Assembly: GCA_947586185.1 (NCBI GenBank)
Contig: CANPXN010000005.1
Location: forward strand, 1 to 64,000
Direction of reading: 5' to 3'
Origin: an uncultured Clostridia bacterium
GTDB lineage: Bacteria > Bacillota > Clostridia > Oscillospirales > Ruminococcaceae
Length of the DNA: 64,000 nucleotides
Below, piece after piece: positions 52,651-60,746 of this stretch. Made by a program: the position numbers and the translations under genes. The notes below the pieces were generated by a model, which was not told the DNA's origin, did no database searches, and was given only the letters and a program-made list of their open reading frames with translations. Numbering within the stretch: position 1 is the stretch's first letter; every line of letters begins with the position of its first letter.

Positions 52651-53327
52651 ATAATATCCTTTATTCTTAAAATTATCTCCTTTGACGCCCTTTCAACGTA
52701 CTCCTCCAGCTCATCAAACGTCATATATAAAGGCTCTCCGAAAAGATTTTCCTCACAAAAGTAATGCTCCAAAATCCAGTCACGACTGTCAGAGGACTCC
52801 TTTGCTGAAACATATCCCGGAATATCATAAGCTTCAAGCTCCCTGAGTATTCTCCTCACATCACGGACAAAAGGATATTGCTCGGCCATAATACGATCGG
52901 CTGCATTCATATCGTGCATGATCAGAGTGAAAAATTCCGGATCTCTTTGGGTAACCCCTTTTAAGGCTACCTTTTTTCTGAAATTCTCCCGGACTGTCCT
53001 TATATAAATTTCATCAGCGATAAGATGAGAAGCATACCCAAGATTGCCCCAGAAGTTCTCATTCTCTCTTTTACAAAAGCTGCTTACAAACCCACTGAGT
53101 CTGCTGTGAAACAGGGCAAGCATATCCGGCTTCAGAAAATCCCAGTCGGATATGCCGTCCCTTAGGTGACTGTGCTTTTTGTATTCACGCTTATAGCCGG
53201 CTCTTGAATGAACAGCATCCGGAGCAAGATTTCCGCAGAAAAACTTAGAAACATCCCCTACAGTACCCTCAGGAAGTATGCTCAGGATTCTGTCCGTCAG
53301 AGCTATATGAGTTATTATCCCTGCCAT
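52647..53327 (-). CDS. Zinc-dependent phospholipase C-family protein
   Basis: This 226-residue protein has His and Asp residues placed as in the PLC/S1-P1 nuclease zinc family ([47 protein letters not shown]). It has no signal peptide, so the substrate may be cytosolic. It overlaps the stop of cysK by one base (TGATG), so it is third in the metY-cysK operon. No direct link to sulfur is seen. Confidence 0.72.
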   Translation of the reverse strand: MAGIITHIALTDRILSILPEGTVGDVSKFFCGNLAPDAVHSRAGYKREYKKHSHLRDGISDWDFLKPDMLALFHSRLSGFVSSFCKRENENFWGNLGYASHLIADEIYIRTVRENFRKKVALKGVTQRDPEFFTLIMHDMNAADRIMAEQYPFVRDVRRILRELEAYDIPGYVSAKESSDSRDWILEHYFCEENLFGEPLYMTFDELEEYVERASKEIILRIKDII

Positions 53328-54259
53328 CAGTCGGCAAACATAGGAGTTGAAAGATATCTGTCCCCTGTGTCAGGAAGGAGAACAACAATGGTTTTTCCCT
53401 TGTTTTCCGGACGCTTCGCAAGCTGTACCGCTGCCCAGAGAGCTGCTCCGCTGGAAATGCCTACAAGCACTCCCTCTTTTCTTGCAAAATCCCTGCCTGT
53501 TTCAAGAGCCGCATTGTTCGGGACTTTGACTATTTCATCATACACCGATGTATCGAGAGCCTCTGGAACAAAGCCTGCTCCGATGCCCTGTATCGCATGA
53601 GCGCCCGGCCTTTCACCTGAAAGAACAGCAGAGGTTTCCGGCTCAACAGCAACGACCCTTACCGCCGGATTCTTTGATTTCAGATATTTTCCCACACCGG
53701 TAATAGTTCCTCCTGTTCCGACGCCTGCAACAAATATATCCACCTTTCCGTCGGTGTCCTCCCATATCTCAGGACCTGTCGAAGCAAGATGAGCCGCTGG
53801 ATTTGCAGGATTCACAAACTGTCCTAAAATCACCGAGCCTTCAATTTCCCTGTTCAGCTCGTCAGCCTTTTCGATTGCTCCCTTCATACCCTTTGCTCCG
53901 TCGGTAAGCACTATTTCCGCACCGTATGCCTTAAGCAAATTTCTTCTCTCAATGCTCATAGTTTCCGGCATAGTCATGATCGCTCTGTAGCCTCTTGCGG
54001 CAGCAACTGCTGCAAGGCCTATGCCTGTGTTTCCGCTTGTAGGCTCAATGATCGCTGCTCCTGGCTTTAAAAGTCCCTTTTTCTCTGCGTCCTCTATCAT
54101 GGAAAGCGCTACTCTGTCCTTAACGCTTCCTGCCGGATTAAGGTATTCAAGCTTTCCCAAAAGGCTCGTTTCAAGCCCCTGGGACTTTGAATAGCGTGAA
54201 AGCTCCAAAATAGGAGTTCCGCCTATAAGCTCTGTAACGTCCTTATAAACCTTAGCCAT
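53327..54259 (-). CDS. cysK: Cysteine synthase (O-acetylserine sulfhydrylase)
   Basis: This 310-residue PLP enzyme makes cysteine from O-acetylserine and sulfide. Visible: [14 protein letters not shown] with the PLP Lys, substrate loop [12 protein letters not shown], the [14 protein letters not shown] phosphate site, and the C-terminal [10 protein letters not shown]. Full length. It follows metY by 30 bases. Start: ATG with GGAGA upstream. Confidence 0.95.
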
Positions 54260-54289: not shown

Positions 54290-55588
54290 TTATTTTACAG
54301 CCCTGAATGCTTCTTCAAGGTCATATATTATATCGTCAATATGCTCTGTACCGATTGAAAGCCTTATAGTATTCGGCTTTATGCCCTGCTCCAAAAGCTC
54401 CTCTGTGCTGAGCTGAGAATGAGTTGTGGAAGCCGGATGTATCACAAGGGACTTAACATCTGCAACATTTGCAAGAAGAGAAAATACCTGCAAATGATCT
54501 ATGAAGTCCTTTGCAGTTCTGTCGCTGCCCTTGATCTCAAAAGTAAATATCGAACCTCCGCCATTCGGGAAGTATTTACTGTATACCTTATGACTCGGCT
54601 CGCTTTCCAGTGACGGATGATGAACAGCCTCAACCTGAGGATGACTGCTTAAATACTCCACAACTTTAAGAGCATTTTCAACATGTCTTTCAACTCTGAG
54701 TGAAAGGGTTTCAAGCCCCTGCAAAAGCAGAAAAGCATTAAATGGCGAAATTGCTGCTCCGGTGTCCCTTAAAAGGATAGCTCTTATATATGTAACAAAT
54801 GCTGCATCACCGGCTGCCTCAGTAAAGCTTACCCCGTGATAGGACGGATTCGGTTCTGATATCCAAGGATATTTTCCCGATGCGCCAAAGTCAAAGCTTC
54901 CGCCGTCAACGATCACACCGCCAAGGGAGGTTCCGTGACCGCCTATAAACTTCGTTGCTGAATGAACCACGATGTCTGCCCCATATTCTATAGGGCGTAC
55001 AAGGTAAGGGGTTGCAAAGGTACTGTCTATCACAAGAGGAATGCCATGCCTGTGAGCAATCTCAGCCAAGACTTCAATATCCGCTGCGTTTGAATTAGGG
55101 TTTCCGAGAGTTTCCGCAAACAGAGCCTTTGTATTTTCGTCTATGGCGCTTTCTATCTCGCTTATACTGTCCGGATCGGCAAACTTTGCGGTAATTCCGT
55201 AAAGGGGAAGGGTATGGGCAAGAAGATTATATGTGCCGCCATAGATCGTTTTGGCTGCAACAATGTTTTCACCCTGGCGTGCTAAAGCCTGGAAAGTATA
55301 TGTTATCGCTGCCGCACCGGAGGCTGCTGCCAGAGCCGCCGTACCTCCCTCAAGAGACGCCACTCTCTTCTCAAAAACGTCCTGAGTAGAGTTTGTAAGT
55401 CTTCCGTAAATATTTCCGGCATCCTGAAGTCCGAACCTTGCAGCCGCATGGTCACTGTTTTTAAAGACATAGGACGTGGTCTGATAAATCGGAACTGCTC
55501 TTGAATCAGTTGCCGGATCAGGATTTTCCTGTCCCACATGAAGCTGTCTTGTTTCAAATCTTAATTTTCTTTCATCTATTGTACTCAT
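54290..55588 (-). CDS. metY: O-acetylhomoserine sulfhydrylase
   Basis: This 432-residue Cys/Met-metabolism PLP enzyme makes homocysteine from O-acetylhomoserine and sulfide. Markers: RFGLQDAGNIYGRLTN, the PLP Lys in HSATKFIGGHGTSLGG, and the long inserts that separate MetY from MetB. Upstream by 32 bases is a Cys-codon leader ORF (55621-55692). It forms an operon with cysK. Start: ATG with AGAGAGG upstream. Confidence 0.92.
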   Translation of the reverse strand: MSTIDERKLRFETRQLHVGQENPDPATDSRAVPIYQTTSYVFKNSDHAAARFGLQDAGNIYGRLTNSTQDVFEKRVASLEGGTAALAAASGAAAITYTFQALARQGENIVAAKTIYGGTYNLLAHTLPLYGITAKFADPDSISEIESAIDENTKALFAETLGNPNSNAADIEVLAEIAHRHGIPLVIDSTFATPYLVRPIEYGADIVVHSATKFIGGHGTSLGGVIVDGGSFDFGASGKYPWISEPNPSYHGVSFTEAAGDAAFVTYIRAILLRDTGAAISPFNAFLLLQGLETLSLRVERHVENALKVVEYLSSHPQVEAVHHPSLESEPSHKVYSKYFPNGGGSIFTFEIKGSDRTAKDFIDHLQVFSLLANVADVKSLVIHPASTTHSQLSTEELLEQGIKPNTIRLSIGTEHIDDIIYDLEEAFRAVK

Positions 55589-55620
55589 TTTTAGTTACCT
55601 CTCTGTCGTTGTGATTTTGG

Positions 55621-55692
55621 TTAATTCAATAAACATCTGTATGATCCGCACATTCGACAGCTGTAACATCGCTTCAAAAATAATGGTTTCAT
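55621..55692 (-). CDS. 23-residue Cys-rich leader peptide upstream of metY-cysK
   Basis: The ATG at 55692 has a strong TAGGAGGAAGAAA ribosome site and begins right after the promoter. The peptide has four Cys (positions 9, 12, 15 and 20) with basic residues (starts MKPLFLKRCYSC). An ORF this short, well initiated and full of Cys codons before a cysteine/homocysteine synthesis operon fits a leader peptide that senses charged tRNA-Cys. No terminator hairpin lies between its stop and metY, so any control may be by translation coupling or RNA folding rather than classical attenuation. Confidence 0.6.
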   Translation of the reverse strand: MKPLFLKRCYSCRMCGSYRCLLN

Positions 55693-55710
55693 TTTCTTCC
55701 TCCTATAAAG

Positions 55711-55727
55711 CCTATCGACTTTGTAGG
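55711..55727. promoter_or_regulatory. Inverted repeat over the metY start point
   Basis: CCTATCGACTTTGTAGG (CCTA..TAGG around nine bases) lies at the likely transcription start of the leader-metY-cysK operon. The shape resembles sites of Rrf2-family sulfur/Fe-S regulators such as CymR. Inference from position and symmetry. Confidence 0.45.
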
Positions 55728-55731
55728 TTTT

Positions 55732-55760
55732 ATTATATACCATCATTTCCAATTTGTCAA
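55732..55760 (-). promoter_or_regulatory. Promoter of leader-metY-cysK
   Basis: TTGACA (55755-55760), a 17-base spacer and TATAAT (55732-55737) on the minus strand. Confidence 0.88.
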
Positions 55761-55846: not shown

Positions 55847-56389
55847 TTAGTACCCATATGGCATAGCTGAAAGCTTCTTCCTGCGATTCTGTGTAACAGC
55901 GTTCATTATAAAGCTTACGATCAAAGTGGTAAAGCATACCGAGCTGACAGACGTGGAAACAAAGTAATATATCTCAGCCCAAAACAGTGATACCTTAAAA
56001 ATGATTGCAAACATTAAATATGCCCATATAAGATAATGAGTAAAGTATATAAGACAGAATCCGGTAATACCTGTAGAAAGCGCCACAGTCGTACTGTGGG
56101 AGATAAAATAAGCGCACCATGCAACTATTATTAGCACAACTCCGATTATATTGACTGTAAGATAAAAACCGGCGCTCCACCTGAAAGCGATCGCAAACAT
56201 ATATGCCAAAATAGTCAGTATGCCCTCCCATACTGCGTCTGCGCCTCTGCCCTCTATTTCCTCAAGGTGTTTAAGTATGTCCATATTCTTAAAGAAAAGG
56301 AAACATATAATACCGGAAACCGCCATAACAACAGAAAAGATCATAAACACAAGGCTGCTCCATTTTAAAAACTTATACTGCCATGTCAT
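55847..56389 (-). CDS. Integral membrane protein of unknown family
   Basis: This 180-residue protein has about five hydrophobic segments (12-33, 58-75, 80-100, 105-125, 140-163). It ends the minus-strand run after the hydrogenase operon. A hairpin separates them, so it may be a separate unit. Family not recognised. Confidence 0.6.
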   Translation of the reverse strand: MTWQYKFLKWSSLVFMIFSVVMAVSGIICFLFFKNMDILKHLEEIEGRGADAVWEGILTILAYMFAIAFRWSAGFYLTVNIIGVVLIIVAWCAYFISHSTTVALSTGITGFCLIYFTHYLIWAYLMFAIIFKVSLFWAEIYYFVSTSVSSVCFTTLIVSFIMNAVTQNRRKKLSAMPYGY

Positions 56390-56455: not shown

Positions 56456-57886
56456 TTATTTTTTAGCAAATCCAATTGCGCTTGTTATAGTCTTTTCCAT
56501 AGCCTCTCTTCCATACTTATCGACCTCGCTCTTGTTCTTTACTCCGTGAGTAAGACATCCAGCTCCGCCGATACAGCCGTTTGTACAAGCCATACCCTCG
56601 ATAAAATTGTTAGGCAGAACATTCTTGGAAGCTCTTAAAAGCGCACTTCTGCATGCCTCTATACCGTCGCATGCAATAGGGTCAGCCTTGAAGTCCTCGA
56701 TACCATGCTCCTTGAGAGCCTGAGCCACAGCGTCTGAAAGACCTCCGCTTCTTGCAAAGATCCTGCCGTAGTAGGAGGCGTTGTCCAGAACGTCCTCCTC
56801 AAAGGTATTGATCTCCATATCACGGCTGTCAAACAGCGCCTGAAGCTCCTCAAATGTGATAACGCTGTCAACATAAGGTCTGACCTCTTCCTTCTGAAAT
56901 TCCATTTTCTTTGCTGTACAAGGGCCGATAAACACGATTTTTGCCGTAGGGTCTGTTTCCTTAATATATTTTGAAATTGTTGCCATAGGAGAAAGGTTAT
57001 GAGAAATATGCTCCACCATATCCGGGAACTGCTTATGGATATAGTCAACAAATGCCGGACAGCAGGAGCTTGTGAGAAATCCCTTTTCTTTAAGCTCGGC
57101 TGCCTCAGAATATGCTACCATATCCGCACCGAGAGCCGCCTCTACAACGCTGTGGAAGCCAAGCTTCTTTATTGCCGTTACTACCTGACCTAATTTTGCA
57201 TAAGAAAACTGACTGGATATCGCAGGAGCTGCGACTGCATAAACCTTATATTTTGTATTGTTTTCGCTTCCCTTGAGCATATCTATTACATCAAGAATAA
57301 ATGACTTGTCAACAACAGCTCCGAACGGACACTGATAAACGCATGCGCCGCAGGAGATGCACTTTCCGTTGTCAATTTCAGCGCATTTATCCTTACCCAT
57401 ATGTATTGCGTTGACCTTGCATGATCTTTCACAAGGTCTTTTTCTGCTTACAATAGCGCCGTAAGGGCATACTGCTGCACATCTTCCACATTCAACACAC
57501 TTGTCCTTGTTAATGTGACTTTTCAGATTTTCGTCAAATTCAATTGCACCCTTTGCACATGCGTCTTCGCAGCGATGAGCGATACAGCCTCTGCATATAT
57601 CGGCAACTACGTTATATCCGCTTACCGGACATTCGTCGCAGGCTATATCTATTACCTCGATCACATTAGGATTCTTTTTATCTCCGCCCATTGCCAGCTT
57701 GATTCTTTCGCCTACAATAGCTCTTTCCTTGTACACGCAGCAGCGCATGGTGGATTCCTTGCCTTTAACAACAATTTCCGGGATCTCAGTAAAACAGTCC
57801 AAAAGCCTGTCTTCAAAAGCATATCTTGCAACTTCTCTTAATACCTTATATTTCAGATACTGAACCTGTGTGTCAAATTTTCTCAT
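56456..57886 (-). CDS. [FeFe]-hydrogenase-like protein with multiple 4Fe-4S sites
   Basis: The protein has 476 residues. The N-terminal half holds several ferredoxin clusters (CDECPVSGYN, CRGCIAHRCEDAC, CVECGRCAAVCP, CISCGACVYQCP). The C-terminal half is an Fe-hydrogenase large domain with the three H-cluster motifs in variant form: TSSCCPAF, GPCTAKKME, EGMACTNGCIGGAG. Variants of this kind occur in sensory and other non-bifurcating hydrogenases. It is the last gene of a four-gene operon with a PAS-hydrogenase and a phosphatase. It may be catalytic or a signalling partner. Start: ATG with GGAGG upstream. Confidence 0.85.
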   Translation of the reverse strand: MRKFDTQVQYLKYKVLREVARYAFEDRLLDCFTEIPEIVVKGKESTMRCCVYKERAIVGERIKLAMGGDKKNPNVIEVIDIACDECPVSGYNVVADICRGCIAHRCEDACAKGAIEFDENLKSHINKDKCVECGRCAAVCPYGAIVSRKRPCERSCKVNAIHMGKDKCAEIDNGKCISCGACVYQCPFGAVVDKSFILDVIDMLKGSENNTKYKVYAVAAPAISSQFSYAKLGQVVTAIKKLGFHSVVEAALGADMVAYSEAAELKEKGFLTSSCCPAFVDYIHKQFPDMVEHISHNLSPMATISKYIKETDPTAKIVFIGPCTAKKMEFQKEEVRPYVDSVITFEELQALFDSRDMEINTFEEDVLDNASYYGRIFARSGGLSDAVAQALKEHGIEDFKADPIACDGIEACRSALLRASKNVLPNNFIEGMACTNGCIGGAGCLTHGVKNKSEVDKYGREAMEKTITSAIGFAKK

Positions 57887-57907
57887 TACATACCTCCGAA
57901 CAAAAAA

Positions 57908-59080
57908 TCAAAAATAGATAACCTTTATCTTCTTTCCCATTTGTTTCAATGCGTCGGACAGCTCGTCAACAAGACGCATTTTTATGCTGAAATTTATTGG
58001 CAGATTAGGATTCTGATGGGCAGGATTTATTGCTCGCCCAACGAAAAAGTTTATATCAGTAGCCTCCTCAAAAAGTATTCTTGAGATTCGTGACGCTCCA
58101 TCCGTTTTTGTGCTCCAGTCATAGTAAAGCTCGTTGTCACCGATATAGCTCTGGGCATACTGGAGAACACGGCTTATAGTGATAACTCCCTCCGTTGCAA
58201 GGTCAACGCCCTTTATAGTTGCGATCGGCGGTATCTCAGGGTCCATGTCATCAAGGTCGGAAACAACGCTTTCACCTAAAAATTCGGCAGCAAGGGTGGA
58301 GGTCGTACCGCCGCTTACAATATGCTTTCCCTCCTTGGAGAAAAACAGTGACATCATTTTGTTTACATCCGCCGGATTTGACGGAGGACCGAACAAAAGA
58401 TTTACCGGTTTACGTCTTCTTATCTTAACAGCGGCTATTGTGGTATCATCTCCCGGTTCCCTCCCATAGAGCCTGTCGCATTCGTCAAGAATTATTGTGG
58501 AGATCGCCTTTGCGCTGTAATCGTCCTCATACAGCTTTTCAATGTATCTTATTATGTTTTCTCTTTTCCAGCCAAAGTTCATACTCATACCGACTCCGGC
58601 ATAGATAGCTCCATCGCTCATTGCGATAAAGACATCGTTTTCACACAGCTGTATTTTTGAGCGGTATATTGTTTTTCCACCGGCTTCAAAGGAGGTTTTG
58701 TCGTAATCGTAGTTTTTGCCGTTTCTCAGCAATATAACATGAGGATTGTCATACTGGATTATCTCAGCTTCCCTGTTATCAATAACCCTTATGATCGTAA
58801 AAGTGGAATAGGCGACCTTTCTCACTTCACATACCGGAAGAGTTGCGGCAATTGTGGAAACGCATTCCTCAATGCTCATTTCATTTGCCATCATAGTGGA
58901 AATTATCTTTGAAGTAAGCGTTGAAAGGATATTAGCCTTAACGCCGCTGCCGAGACCGTCTGCAAGAACCATAACCGTATAGTTATCGCCTTTTTCAATT
59001 ATTTCAACCTTGTCGCCGCAGAGCTGCTCGCCGAACTTATTTATGCTGTAATAGCCGACATTCGTACAAAGATTATTCAT
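57908..59080 (-). CDS. SpoIIE-type PP2C serine phosphatase
   Basis: This 390-residue protein has a PP2C/SpoIIE phosphatase domain (about 5-225) with metal-binding Asp residues in VLADGLGSGVKAN, MSDGAIYAGVG and GDDTTIAAVKI, followed by a ~165-residue C-terminal domain. SpoIIE-like phosphatases usually switch anti-sigma-factor antagonist proteins. Its start overlaps the end of the sensory hydrogenase gene by 8 bases, so the two act together; the target protein is not encoded nearby. Confidence 0.85.
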   Translation of the reverse strand: MNNLCTNVGYYSINKFGEQLCGDKVEIIEKGDNYTVMVLADGLGSGVKANILSTLTSKIISTMMANEMSIEECVSTIAATLPVCEVRKVAYSTFTIIRVIDNREAEIIQYDNPHVILLRNGKNYDYDKTSFEAGGKTIYRSKIQLCENDVFIAMSDGAIYAGVGMSMNFGWKRENIIRYIEKLYEDDYSAKAISTIILDECDRLYGREPGDDTTIAAVKIRRRKPVNLLFGPPSNPADVNKMMSLFFSKEGKHIVSGGTTSTLAAEFLGESVVSDLDDMDPEIPPIATIKGVDLATEGVITISRVLQYAQSYIGDNELYYDWSTKTDGASRISRILFEEATDINFFVGRAINPAHQNPNLPINFSIKMRLVDELSDALKQMGKKIKVIYF

Positions 59081-60746
59081 CGCTAAGACTCTCCTTCAGA
59101 TTGTTCAGAGCGACCTTTGTTTCAGCTACGGTTTCACCCAGCAGGGACGCAATTTCCTGAACCGTTCTCATCTGCTTTTCAATTACCCTGTCAGTAACGT
59201 CAATTGTATTGTTGCAGAGATCGTTACGCTTTGTACGTTCTCTTTCCTCGTTTGTGATATCACGCATAATACTCATTACAATGTGATAATCAGGGTCATA
59301 TATTACAGTTTCCTCAATATATTTTCCATATTCGGCAAGGAATATCTTCTTGTCGTGTATGTTTCTTTTTGTATCTATAACATTAATATATTCAGTAGGA
59401 TTTAAAACTCTTACAACCGGAGAGCCGAGAATATCGCTCTGATCCTTGATATTCATAATGCTGCATGCAGCCTTGTTTATCTGCTGGACTTCAAGCTCCT
59501 CGTTAAGCACAATAATGCCGTTAGGAGTATTTGTTATGATCTTGTCAGAGAACGACTCCGCTTTATCCTTTAAAAACGGCAGACACATTGTGAAGTCAGC
59601 CTTGCCCTGATATACGGCAACAGCCTTTTCACGGCAAGTGTTGTATCCGCAGCTTCCGCAGTTAAGCTCCTGTTCCGGAGATGTCTTGCCCATTTTGTGC
59701 AGTATCTCCTCAATGATCCTGTTGCTCGGCATAGCTCTGTGGAGAAGATTTCCGGAAAATTCCTTTTCAAGCTTGCCCTCATCCGGAGCGGAAACGTCAT
59801 ATCTGCCCTCTCCGGAATATCTGTCCACTGCAACATAATCCGTAACAAGTAAACGACGTTTGTTCATTGAAGGACCGCCCACGCAGCTTCCGGCACAGGA
59901 GGACATTTCTACAAAGCAGTTTTTAAGCTTACCCTCAGAAATATCTTTAAGAGCGTTTATGCAGTTTTCAGTACCGTCAACGGCTATGTAGCTGTACTTT
60001 TCGTTTCTTTTTGTCATTGTGCGCAGTATGCCGCCGGATACAGGATAAAGCCTTGTAAGGCACTTAGGAAATTCCTCCTCGGCAGGCTCAAATTCAACTC
60101 CGCTTTCCTCCATCCACTGTGAAAGCTCCTCAAAGGTAAGAACCGTATCGGCATATCCCTTATAGCTCTCAGCCTCATCCTTTTTGGAGATGCAGGGACC
60201 TATAAACACTGTATAGCAGCCCGGATTTTCTTCCCTTAGCTTCTGACAATGAGCCTGCATAGGTGAAAGAACATGCGCAAGATACTTCAGAGCCTCCGGG
60301 TAATACTTCTGTATAAGGGTATTTACCGAATGGCAGCAGGAAGAAATTATAACGTCCTGTTCTCCCTTATCAATAAGCTTCTCATACTCCTCCGTAATGA
60401 TCTGAGCGCCGACAGCTGTTTCCTCAGCATAGTAGAAACCAAGCTTTTTAAGAGCATTTCTCATGGATTCTATATTTACGCCCTCATAATTTGCCGCAAA
60501 GGCAGGAGCAACGCTTGCAACAACTCTTTTACCCTCAGCCATTGCTGCCTTTACGCTGTCAACGTCGTTTCTGATCTCCTTTGCATTCTGCGGACATACG
60601 ACAAAACATGTTCCGCAGAGTATACACTCATCCTTAATAATATTCGCCCGGTTTTCCGAAAATTTTATAGACTTTACCGGACAGTGTCTGATACACTTAT
60701 AGCAGTTTTTGCAGTTAAGCTTATTAAGCTGTAAATAATCCTTCAT
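59073..60746 (-). CDS. Sensory [FeFe]-hydrogenase with C-terminal PAS domain (HydS-like)
   Basis: This is a 557-residue protein. Residues 1 to about 60 form two ferredoxin motifs (CKNCYKCIRHCP, CILCGTCFVVCP). The middle is an Fe-hydrogenase domain (about 75-350) with altered H-cluster motifs (ISSCCHSV, GPCISKKDE, SSCAGSCVGGPS). A further 4Fe-4S domain (about 365-400, NCGSCGYNTC) is followed by a PAS domain (about 405-500) and a helical tail. This is the layout of PAS-linked sensory hydrogenases known from Ruminococcus. There is no kinase domain; the overlapping SpoIIE phosphatase is the likely output. Confidence 0.87.
   Translation of the reverse strand: MKDYLQLNKLNCKNCYKCIRHCPVKSIKFSENRANIIKDECILCGTCFVVCPQNAKEIRNDVDSVKAAMAEGKRVVASVAPAFAANYEGVNIESMRNALKKLGFYYAEETAVGAQIITEEYEKLIDKGEQDVIISSCCHSVNTLIQKYYPEALKYLAHVLSPMQAHCQKLREENPGCYTVFIGPCISKKDEAESYKGYADTVLTFEELSQWMEESGVEFEPAEEEFPKCLTRLYPVSGGILRTMTKRNEKYSYIAVDGTENCINALKDISEGKLKNCFVEMSSCAGSCVGGPSMNKRRLLVTDYVAVDRYSGEGRYDVSAPDEGKLEKEFSGNLLHRAMPSNRIIEEILHKMGKTSPEQELNCGSCGYNTCREKAVAVYQGKADFTMCLPFLKDKAESFSDKIITNTPNGIIVLNEELEVQQINKAACSIMNIKDQSDILGSPVVRVLNPTEYINVIDTKRNIHDKKIFLAEYGKYIEETVIYDPDYHIVMSIMRDITNEERERTKRNDLCNNTIDVTDRVIEKQMRTVQEIASLLGETVAETKVALNNLKESLSDE

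Follow-up and report, generated by a model that had tools for sequence, protein, structure and literature searches.

Upstream of the metY and cysK genes in the window (the whole 64,000-nucleotide stretch of DNA analysed here) lie a sigma-70-type promoter that matches the consensus at 12 of 12 positions, an inverted repeat across the predicted transcription start and a short open reading frame (ORF) with its own Shine–Dalgarno (SD) sequence (Table 1). The leader start codon is located about 33 nt downstream of the predicted transcription start, and 32 nt separate the end of the leader ORF from metY. At the window Cys frequency of 1.7%, four or more Cys residues in 22 codons have a probability of about 5e-4. 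Every element that a first-pass annotation had pointed out (promoter, inverted repeat at the start point, strong SD and, ahead of metY–cysK, a 23-codon ORF containing four Cys codons) is present. That annotation had also reported the absence of a terminator, and we found no terminator-like site on the minus strand between positions 55300 and 56000; terminator-based transcription attenuation was rejected on this ground. An Rfam scan returned no RNA at the leader site and a tRNA as the sole match in the whole window, and the leader peptide had no Pfam or NCBIfam match. Promoter-similar sites in the same genome (L002–L004) are promoter-like matches only, without a leader.

Table 1. Features of the metY–cysK locus and its upstream region.
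Feature	Position	Strand	Basis or detail
Sigma-70-type promoter	55732..55760	minus	TTGACA 55760-55755, 17-nt spacer, TATAAT 55737-55732
Operator-like inverted repeat AAACCTACAAAGTCGATAGGCTTT (AAACCTA...TAGGcTTT; as CCTACAAAGTCGATAGG)	about 55707..55730	minus	Spans predicted transcription start
Leader Shine–Dalgarno AGGAGG	55699..55704	minus	Sequence
Leader ORF MKPLFLKRCYSCRMCGSYRCLLN, 23 codons, four Cys codons, stop TAA	55621..55692	minus	Sequence and R(CGA)-M homologues
Hairpin 5' arm GUUAC-AG-CUGUCG-AA-UGUG, codons Cys9 to Cys15	55649..55667	minus	MFE and centroid structures, duplex z
Conserved core CGA-ATG-TGC (Arg13-Met14-Cys15)	55648..55656	minus	Enrichment in related metY leaders
Hairpin 3' arm CACA-A-CGACAG-AGAG-GUAAC, holds metY SD	55594..55613	minus	MFE and centroid structures, SD unpaired probability
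metY Shine–Dalgarno GAGAGG	55598..55603	minus	Sequence
metY, O-acetylhomoserine/O-acetylserine sulfhydrylase	54290..55588	minus	TIGR01326, 619.6 bits (cut-off 495.1)
cysK, cysteine synthase A	53327..54259	minus	TIGR01139, 443.7 bits (cut-off 350.95)

Homologous R(CGA)-M leaders are present in the same genus and the same family. For the family, we compared 68 metY upstream regions that were picked by metY alone and not by the leader; here and below, the compared sequences are kin rather than independent, and counts and p-values call for corresponding caution. TTGACA and TATAAT were among the most enriched hexamers, and their enrichment was equalled by that of CGAATG, which was present in 32 of the 68 regions against 3.6 expected (33 occurrences against 3.7 expected). 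By contrast, ATG preceded by CGC, CGG, CGT, AGA or AGG was not enriched in these regions. Of the 20 cases in which the frame could be tested, the hexamer shared that of the best SD-led start in 19, and CGAATGTG occurred 22 times in family metY leaders against 0.2 expected. Because CGA-ATG is in frame and is enriched alone among the Arg codons, the conserved unit is the translated R(CGA)-M pair. The SD, the in-frame CGAATG and the synonymous variation at conserved residues together point to a leader ORF that is probably translated.

Same-genus orthologous metY genes are preceded by short ORFs with R-M-C (MYFYNFRCYSRMCN, MKYKYGKALYKRMCTIIFSEDKI and MLYYFEKLIRANFRFGRMCCNHKIR, the last read by eye from the sequence), and outside R-M-C these peptides differ. 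Conservation of the leader in relatives, which the first-pass annotation had proposed as a test, therefore extends to the R-M-C core and not to the remainder of the window peptide. At locus L015 (G002:C2), the leader MLYYFEKLIRANFRFGRMCCNHKIR lies around 300 nt upstream of metY with other sequence between them, perhaps owing to an insertion that separates leader from gene; the metY match at this locus covers just a 90-residue stretch. Among 33 unselected leaders, the residue after R-M was Cys in 16, a stop in 7 and another residue in the remainder, and six of the seven R-M-stop leaders use UGA. R-M is retained even when the next codon is UGA or encodes Arg, Tyr or Gln, and several unselected leaders have no Cys at all (MKNLFEKLLRANFRFGRM is an example of a no-Cys or R-M-stop leader). 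We rejected poly-Cys as the conserved feature, given that the number of Cys residues ranges from zero to five or more among relatives. In some loci (for example, L041, L042, L052, L069 and L092), CGA-AUG-UGA replaces the version with UGC or UGU, and CGAATGTGA occurs 6 times against 0.02 expected; UGA at the conserved Cys position may reflect arrest at the stop codon, decay or something else.

To describe the wider family, a genome collection was scanned with the pattern N-F-R-x-G-R-M-C, in which the second Arg codon was left free (CGN). Leaders of the form NFR[FN]G-RMC were found in at least 120 stretches. The 80 matches listed come from Clostridia records named Oscillospiraceae, Ruminococcaceae, Lachnospiraceae, Christensenella and others, and also from Treponema and Thomasclavelia. 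The family consensus is M-x3-FEKL[VL]RANFRFGRMC, followed by a short Cys-rich tail. Among the matches listed, the downstream gene is metY in most cases, encodes a MetQ lipoprotein in several and MetN in one, and otherwise encodes a methylcobamide:CoM-methyltransferase-like protein (two Treponema loci) or a cystine/amino-acid binding protein (one locus). A separate class-wide motif search that was not conditioned on metY gave 13 matches in 391 genomes, 12 of them directly upstream of metY, and the reversed control pattern gave no matches in the same 391 genomes.

Arg at position -7, which lies outside the search pattern, was present in all 72 non-redundant leaders among the matches listed and was encoded by all six codons, indicating selection on the peptide itself. 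Together with Leu -9 and Phe -12, it is a conserved residue outside the hairpin described below, with synonymous change free. The N-terminal LVRANFRFG segment is absent from the window peptide, and the FEKLVRANFRFG segment is missing in the window and in most of its genus, which still have R-M-C. On the basis of this core and its position, we place the window leader as a putative divergent member of the FRFG-RMC family. The family is apparently new to description: the peptide strings had no match in the literature searched, from which most subscription papers were outside coverage, nor did searches there on clostridial or methionine leader peptides turn up a description of it.

Several members of the family have unusual settings. 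In two family genomes (L101 and L102, at about position 1500), the leader lies within what looks like a methionine ABC transporter operon, between the end of a permease-like upstream coding sequence (a label taken from sequence context, not from a family search) and metQ, which it directly precedes; action at transcription initiation is therefore not required. In Treponema, a gene for a UroD/MtbA-like methyltransferase follows the leader at L125 and L133, which suggests that this methyltransferase may belong to sulfur amino acid metabolism. Leaders before metY or transport genes also occur in Treponema and Thomasclavelia (L143, L153, L187 and L175), and horizontal transfer of leader plus gene between Clostridia, Treponema and Thomasclavelia is possible. 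Carriers of the leader that have been cultured include Eubacterium coprostanoligenes ATCC 51222 (L176), Treponema zioleckii (L143) and Pseudoflavonifractor phocaeensis (L181).

Although the pattern allowed any CGN, 69 of 72 leaders among the matches listed use CGA for the core Arg. Tail Arg residues that immediately precede Cys are encoded by CGA in 20 of 24 cases, against 4 of 52 for other tail Arg residues (Fisher 8e-11). CGA accounts for 16 of the 449 Arg codons (3.6%) in the long ORFs of the window, and the window leader uses it both at Arg8 (before Cys9) and at Arg13 (before Met14-Cys15). Cys makes up 16.4% of residues after RMC, compared with 3.6% in other frames, and only 2 of the 811 residues before RMC. 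Base pairing alone is an unlikely cause of the CGA preference, because CGA still precedes Cys in ten loci that lack a complement downstream, and only some of the loci have the CGA nucleotides themselves in a paired state.

A second element, absent from the first-pass annotation, connects the leader codons with the downstream gene. In both the minimum free energy (MFE) and the centroid structures of the window RNA, codons Cys9 to Cys15 pair around the metY SD, with a duplex z of -2.7 to -3.1 against shuffled partners. Across 73 loci, the mean duplex z was -2.05 (Wilcoxon 4e-11) and the SD core was paired in 66; the window and the majority of FRFG-type relatives have the predicted hairpin. In the latter, codons AAUUUCCGUUUCGG-N-CGAAUGUGU lie opposite ACACAUUC...CGAAAGGAAAU. 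With the SD excluded, complements of CGAATGTGT (ACACAT, ACATTC and CACATT) were among the top hexamers between leader and SD (p 3e-5), and the wobble base of the Asn codon covaried with the SD (Fisher p 0.004, inflated by related sequences). A second hairpin layout occurs at L108, L121, L152, L149, L174 and L187, where codons directly after RMC, instead of those preceding it, complement the target SD; at L108, these codons pair straight with the SD (AAUGUGUACC/GGUACACAU).

The mismatched-partner control for the hairpin was moderate (median fraction 0.22), as expected given that both arms are alike across loci. For 32 loci aligned with MAFFT, RNAalifold gave no consensus hairpin; the 3' arm varies in its placement relative to the SD and is misregistered in the alignment. 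The whole-leader MFE z-scores of the window were weak (-1.5 and -0.2), and its 9-nt core alone had no pairing excess. Unselected non-FRFG family leaders, including the same-genus L008–L011, had no average duplex signal (mean z -0.38), and the case for the hairpin in the window is therefore built on its own sequence and on the analogy with FRFG-type leaders.

The effect of a ribosome on this structure was modelled by masking the nucleotides that it covers and recomputing the unpaired probability of the metY SD. With the footprint over the 5' arm, modelled SD openness in the window rose from 0.445 to 0.63–0.71; further downstream it returned to around 0.44, with 0.53 at the last position, near the stop codon. 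In the model, the SD was freed mainly by a ribosome whose P site lay between about codons -9 and +3 relative to CGA, and a ribosome waiting at Cys9, Cys12 or Cys15 freed the window SD, whereas one waiting at Cys20 did not.

Taken together, these results lead us to favour, as the probable explanation, a translational attenuator through which the expression of metY, and by implication that of cysK, would follow the availability of cysteine or sulfur amino acids. With ample cysteinyl-tRNA, ribosomes would complete the leader ORF, and codons 9–15 (C-Y-S-C-R-M-C) would then pair with the metY SD region, leaving metY poorly translated. When cysteine is short, we infer that ribosomes would dwell at a Cys codon in or beside CGA-(AUG)-UGY, a decoding step that the rare CGA before Cys probably makes slower still; the paused ribosome would occupy the 5' arm, leave the SD free and allow metY to be translated. 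The first-pass annotation had taken the missing terminator as a sign that the mechanism may be new, but its absence poses no puzzle here: with pairing between the leader codons and the region of the metY SD, the simplest form of control acts on translation and a terminator is unnecessary. Its other proposal, that cysteine supply is sensed through ribosome pausing, is strengthened in one respect and weakened in another. A conserved leader family with Cys enriched at and after the core makes cysteine sensing by pausing the most economical reading, whereas poly-Cys itself is not conserved and relatives keep R(CGA)-M with one or no Cys. A more specific version, which we put forward tentatively and regard as possible but doubtful, is that the leaders form a widespread, undescribed arrest-peptide switch, in which CGA would act as a brake in the P site (through its inosine–adenine wobble) before AUG-UGY or UGY, the ribosome would sense sulfur-amino-acid supply, possibly together with a bound metabolite, and the same codons would serve as the anti-SD arm.

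The main competitor to shortage sensing at Cys codons is a metabolite-sensing arrest peptide, in which the nascent chain (consensus LVRANFRFGR) and a sulfur-starvation metabolite of the O-acetylhomoserine/O-acetylserine type would together arrest the ribosome while CGA or AUG occupies the P site, whatever the A-site codon, opening the same hairpin. The arrest peptides TnaC and SpeFL, which sense substrates of downstream enzymes, offer a precedent (for TnaC, see also PMC8429421). A pure Cys-codon sensor does not explain the leaders in which a stop follows R-M or Cys is absent; these fit nascent-chain arrest at R-M, as do the retention of R-M before such varied codons and the freely varying synonymous codons at Arg -7, Leu -9 and Phe -12. 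Nevertheless, the window and most of its genus have R-M-C without the FEKLVRANFRFG segment, and the runs of Cys after RMC and the CGA codons before Cys suggest Cys decoding; we consider the metabolite-sensing arrest peptide unlikely. The enrichment of Cys, the CGA codons before it and the set of genes involved instead favour a shortage of cysteine or sulfur amino acids as the signal. If the hungry codon were AUG, with CGA in the P site, a shortage of methionine would stall ribosomes at R/M and induce homocysteine synthesis and methionine uptake. CGA-AUG is indeed the most constant element, and metY, metQ and metN are among the regulated genes. But the leaders have no surplus of Met codons (14 M versus 93 C among 522 tail residues, and 2 of 799 residues in the leader part), and methionine shortage would also impair initiation on the leader itself, which makes a methionine sensor improbable.

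Two further readings do without amino acid sensing. The upstream ORF could work solely through translational coupling or reinitiation, as the overlap or near-contact between the leader stop and the metY start at L119, L138 and L168 would allow; the gaps between leader and gene are mostly 30–90 nt among the matches listed, however, and coupling leaves the conserved CGA-AUG, the Cys enrichment and the complementary arm unexplained. We regard it as very improbable. Still harder to credit is an ORF present by chance, or a metal-binding micropeptide rich in Cys and unconnected with metY control: the CxxC-like spacing in the window (CYSCRMCGSYRC) and the lack of Pfam or NCBIfam matches would suit it, but the Cys pattern varies among relatives, whereas the position, the R-M-C core and the downstream gene are conserved.

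Above the leader switch, a promoter-proximal operator, probably for an Rrf2-family repressor, would add transcriptional control. The pattern CCTA-N5-12-TAGG was present in 17 of the 68 regions compared above, where 0.7 would be expected, and in one relative an Rrf2 gene adjoins the metY–cysK sequence. The repeat in the window is thus likely to be an operator for an Rrf2-family repressor, judging by its similarity to such sites. Rrf2-type repression, as proposed in the first-pass annotation, gains from this recurrence; on the other side, control is inferred from operator similarity, and the one strong Rrf2 gene in the window's own genome (C8:18017-18409) is sited on another contig than metY–cysK. 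The protein that it encodes fits the CymR model (122.5 bits, cut-off 195) and the IscR model (129 bits, cut-off 207.55) about equally, below both cut-offs. The locus resembles CymR/Rrf2 repression of cysteine genes in its CCTA-N-TAGG-like inverted repeat at the promoter and differs in that its repressor is only putative. Within 55730-55699, the repeat also folds as RNA (CCUA...UAGG) beside the SD of the leader, and leader translation could therefore be influenced too.

Among known systems, the polycysteine attenuators of mycobacteria and the erm-type attenuators come closest. Polycysteine leader attenuators of mycobacterial cys operons, with ORFs that are leaderless according to the title, were reportedly described by Canestrari et al. 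2020 (doi 10.1111/mmi.14498). They share with the window leader a short Cys-codon ORF before sulfur genes, the lack of a terminator and presumed pausing at Cys; but the mycobacterial ORFs are leaderless with Cys runs near the stop codon, whereas the window ORF has an SD and a conserved R(CGA)-M-C core. The FRFG-RMC family differs further in its conserved N-terminal segment, its Clostridia and Treponema hosts and its targets, mainly metY and metQ. Polycysteine leader attenuators had earlier been predicted in Actinobacteria (PMC1262725), and no established sequence similarity links the window leader to the mycobacterial ones. In erm-type translational attenuators (PMC11264731), a hairpin masks the SD of the downstream gene until a ribosome stalled on the leader ORF opens it. 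The window leader would share this unmasking by a stalled leader ribosome, although the erm inducer is a macrolide, whereas the inducer here would be amino-acid shortage and the leader codons themselves form the anti-SD arm. TnaC and SpeFL are likewise conserved short leaders in which arrest has a set position, at which some members have their stop codon; their sequences are different, and for the window leader both ligand and arrest are only hypothetical.

Cys T-boxes and SAM-I riboswitches are the known RNA controls of clostridial sulfur genes. Descriptions of sulfur amino acid control in clostridia centre on T-boxes, SAM riboswitches and CymR-type repressors, and PMC2940859 leaves room for further mechanisms in cases where these are missing. 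Like the proposed leader switch, T-boxes and SAM-I riboswitches respond to Cys or Met at the RNA level upstream of sulfur genes; by Rfam covariance models, however, neither is at the leader site, and both occur elsewhere in the genome of the window. The FRFG-RMC leaders are a candidate additional mechanism for clostridial sulfur amino acid control: an apparently unannotated leader family, without a match in Pfam, NCBIfam or Rfam, that accompanies metY and the methionine transporter in Treponema and in many Clostridia of the gut. Their near-invariant CGA before AUG or Cys also offers a testable case of synonymous codon choice as a regulatory part.

Beyond the promoter, the minus strand at 55847-56389 encodes a 180-residue hydrophobic protein without a Pfam or NCBIfam match. 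Farther upstream on the same strand (56456-60746), a SpoIIE-type phosphatase lies between two proteins with iron-only hydrogenase large-subunit domains, one of which has an FeS domain, a group that is possibly a redox-sensing cluster.
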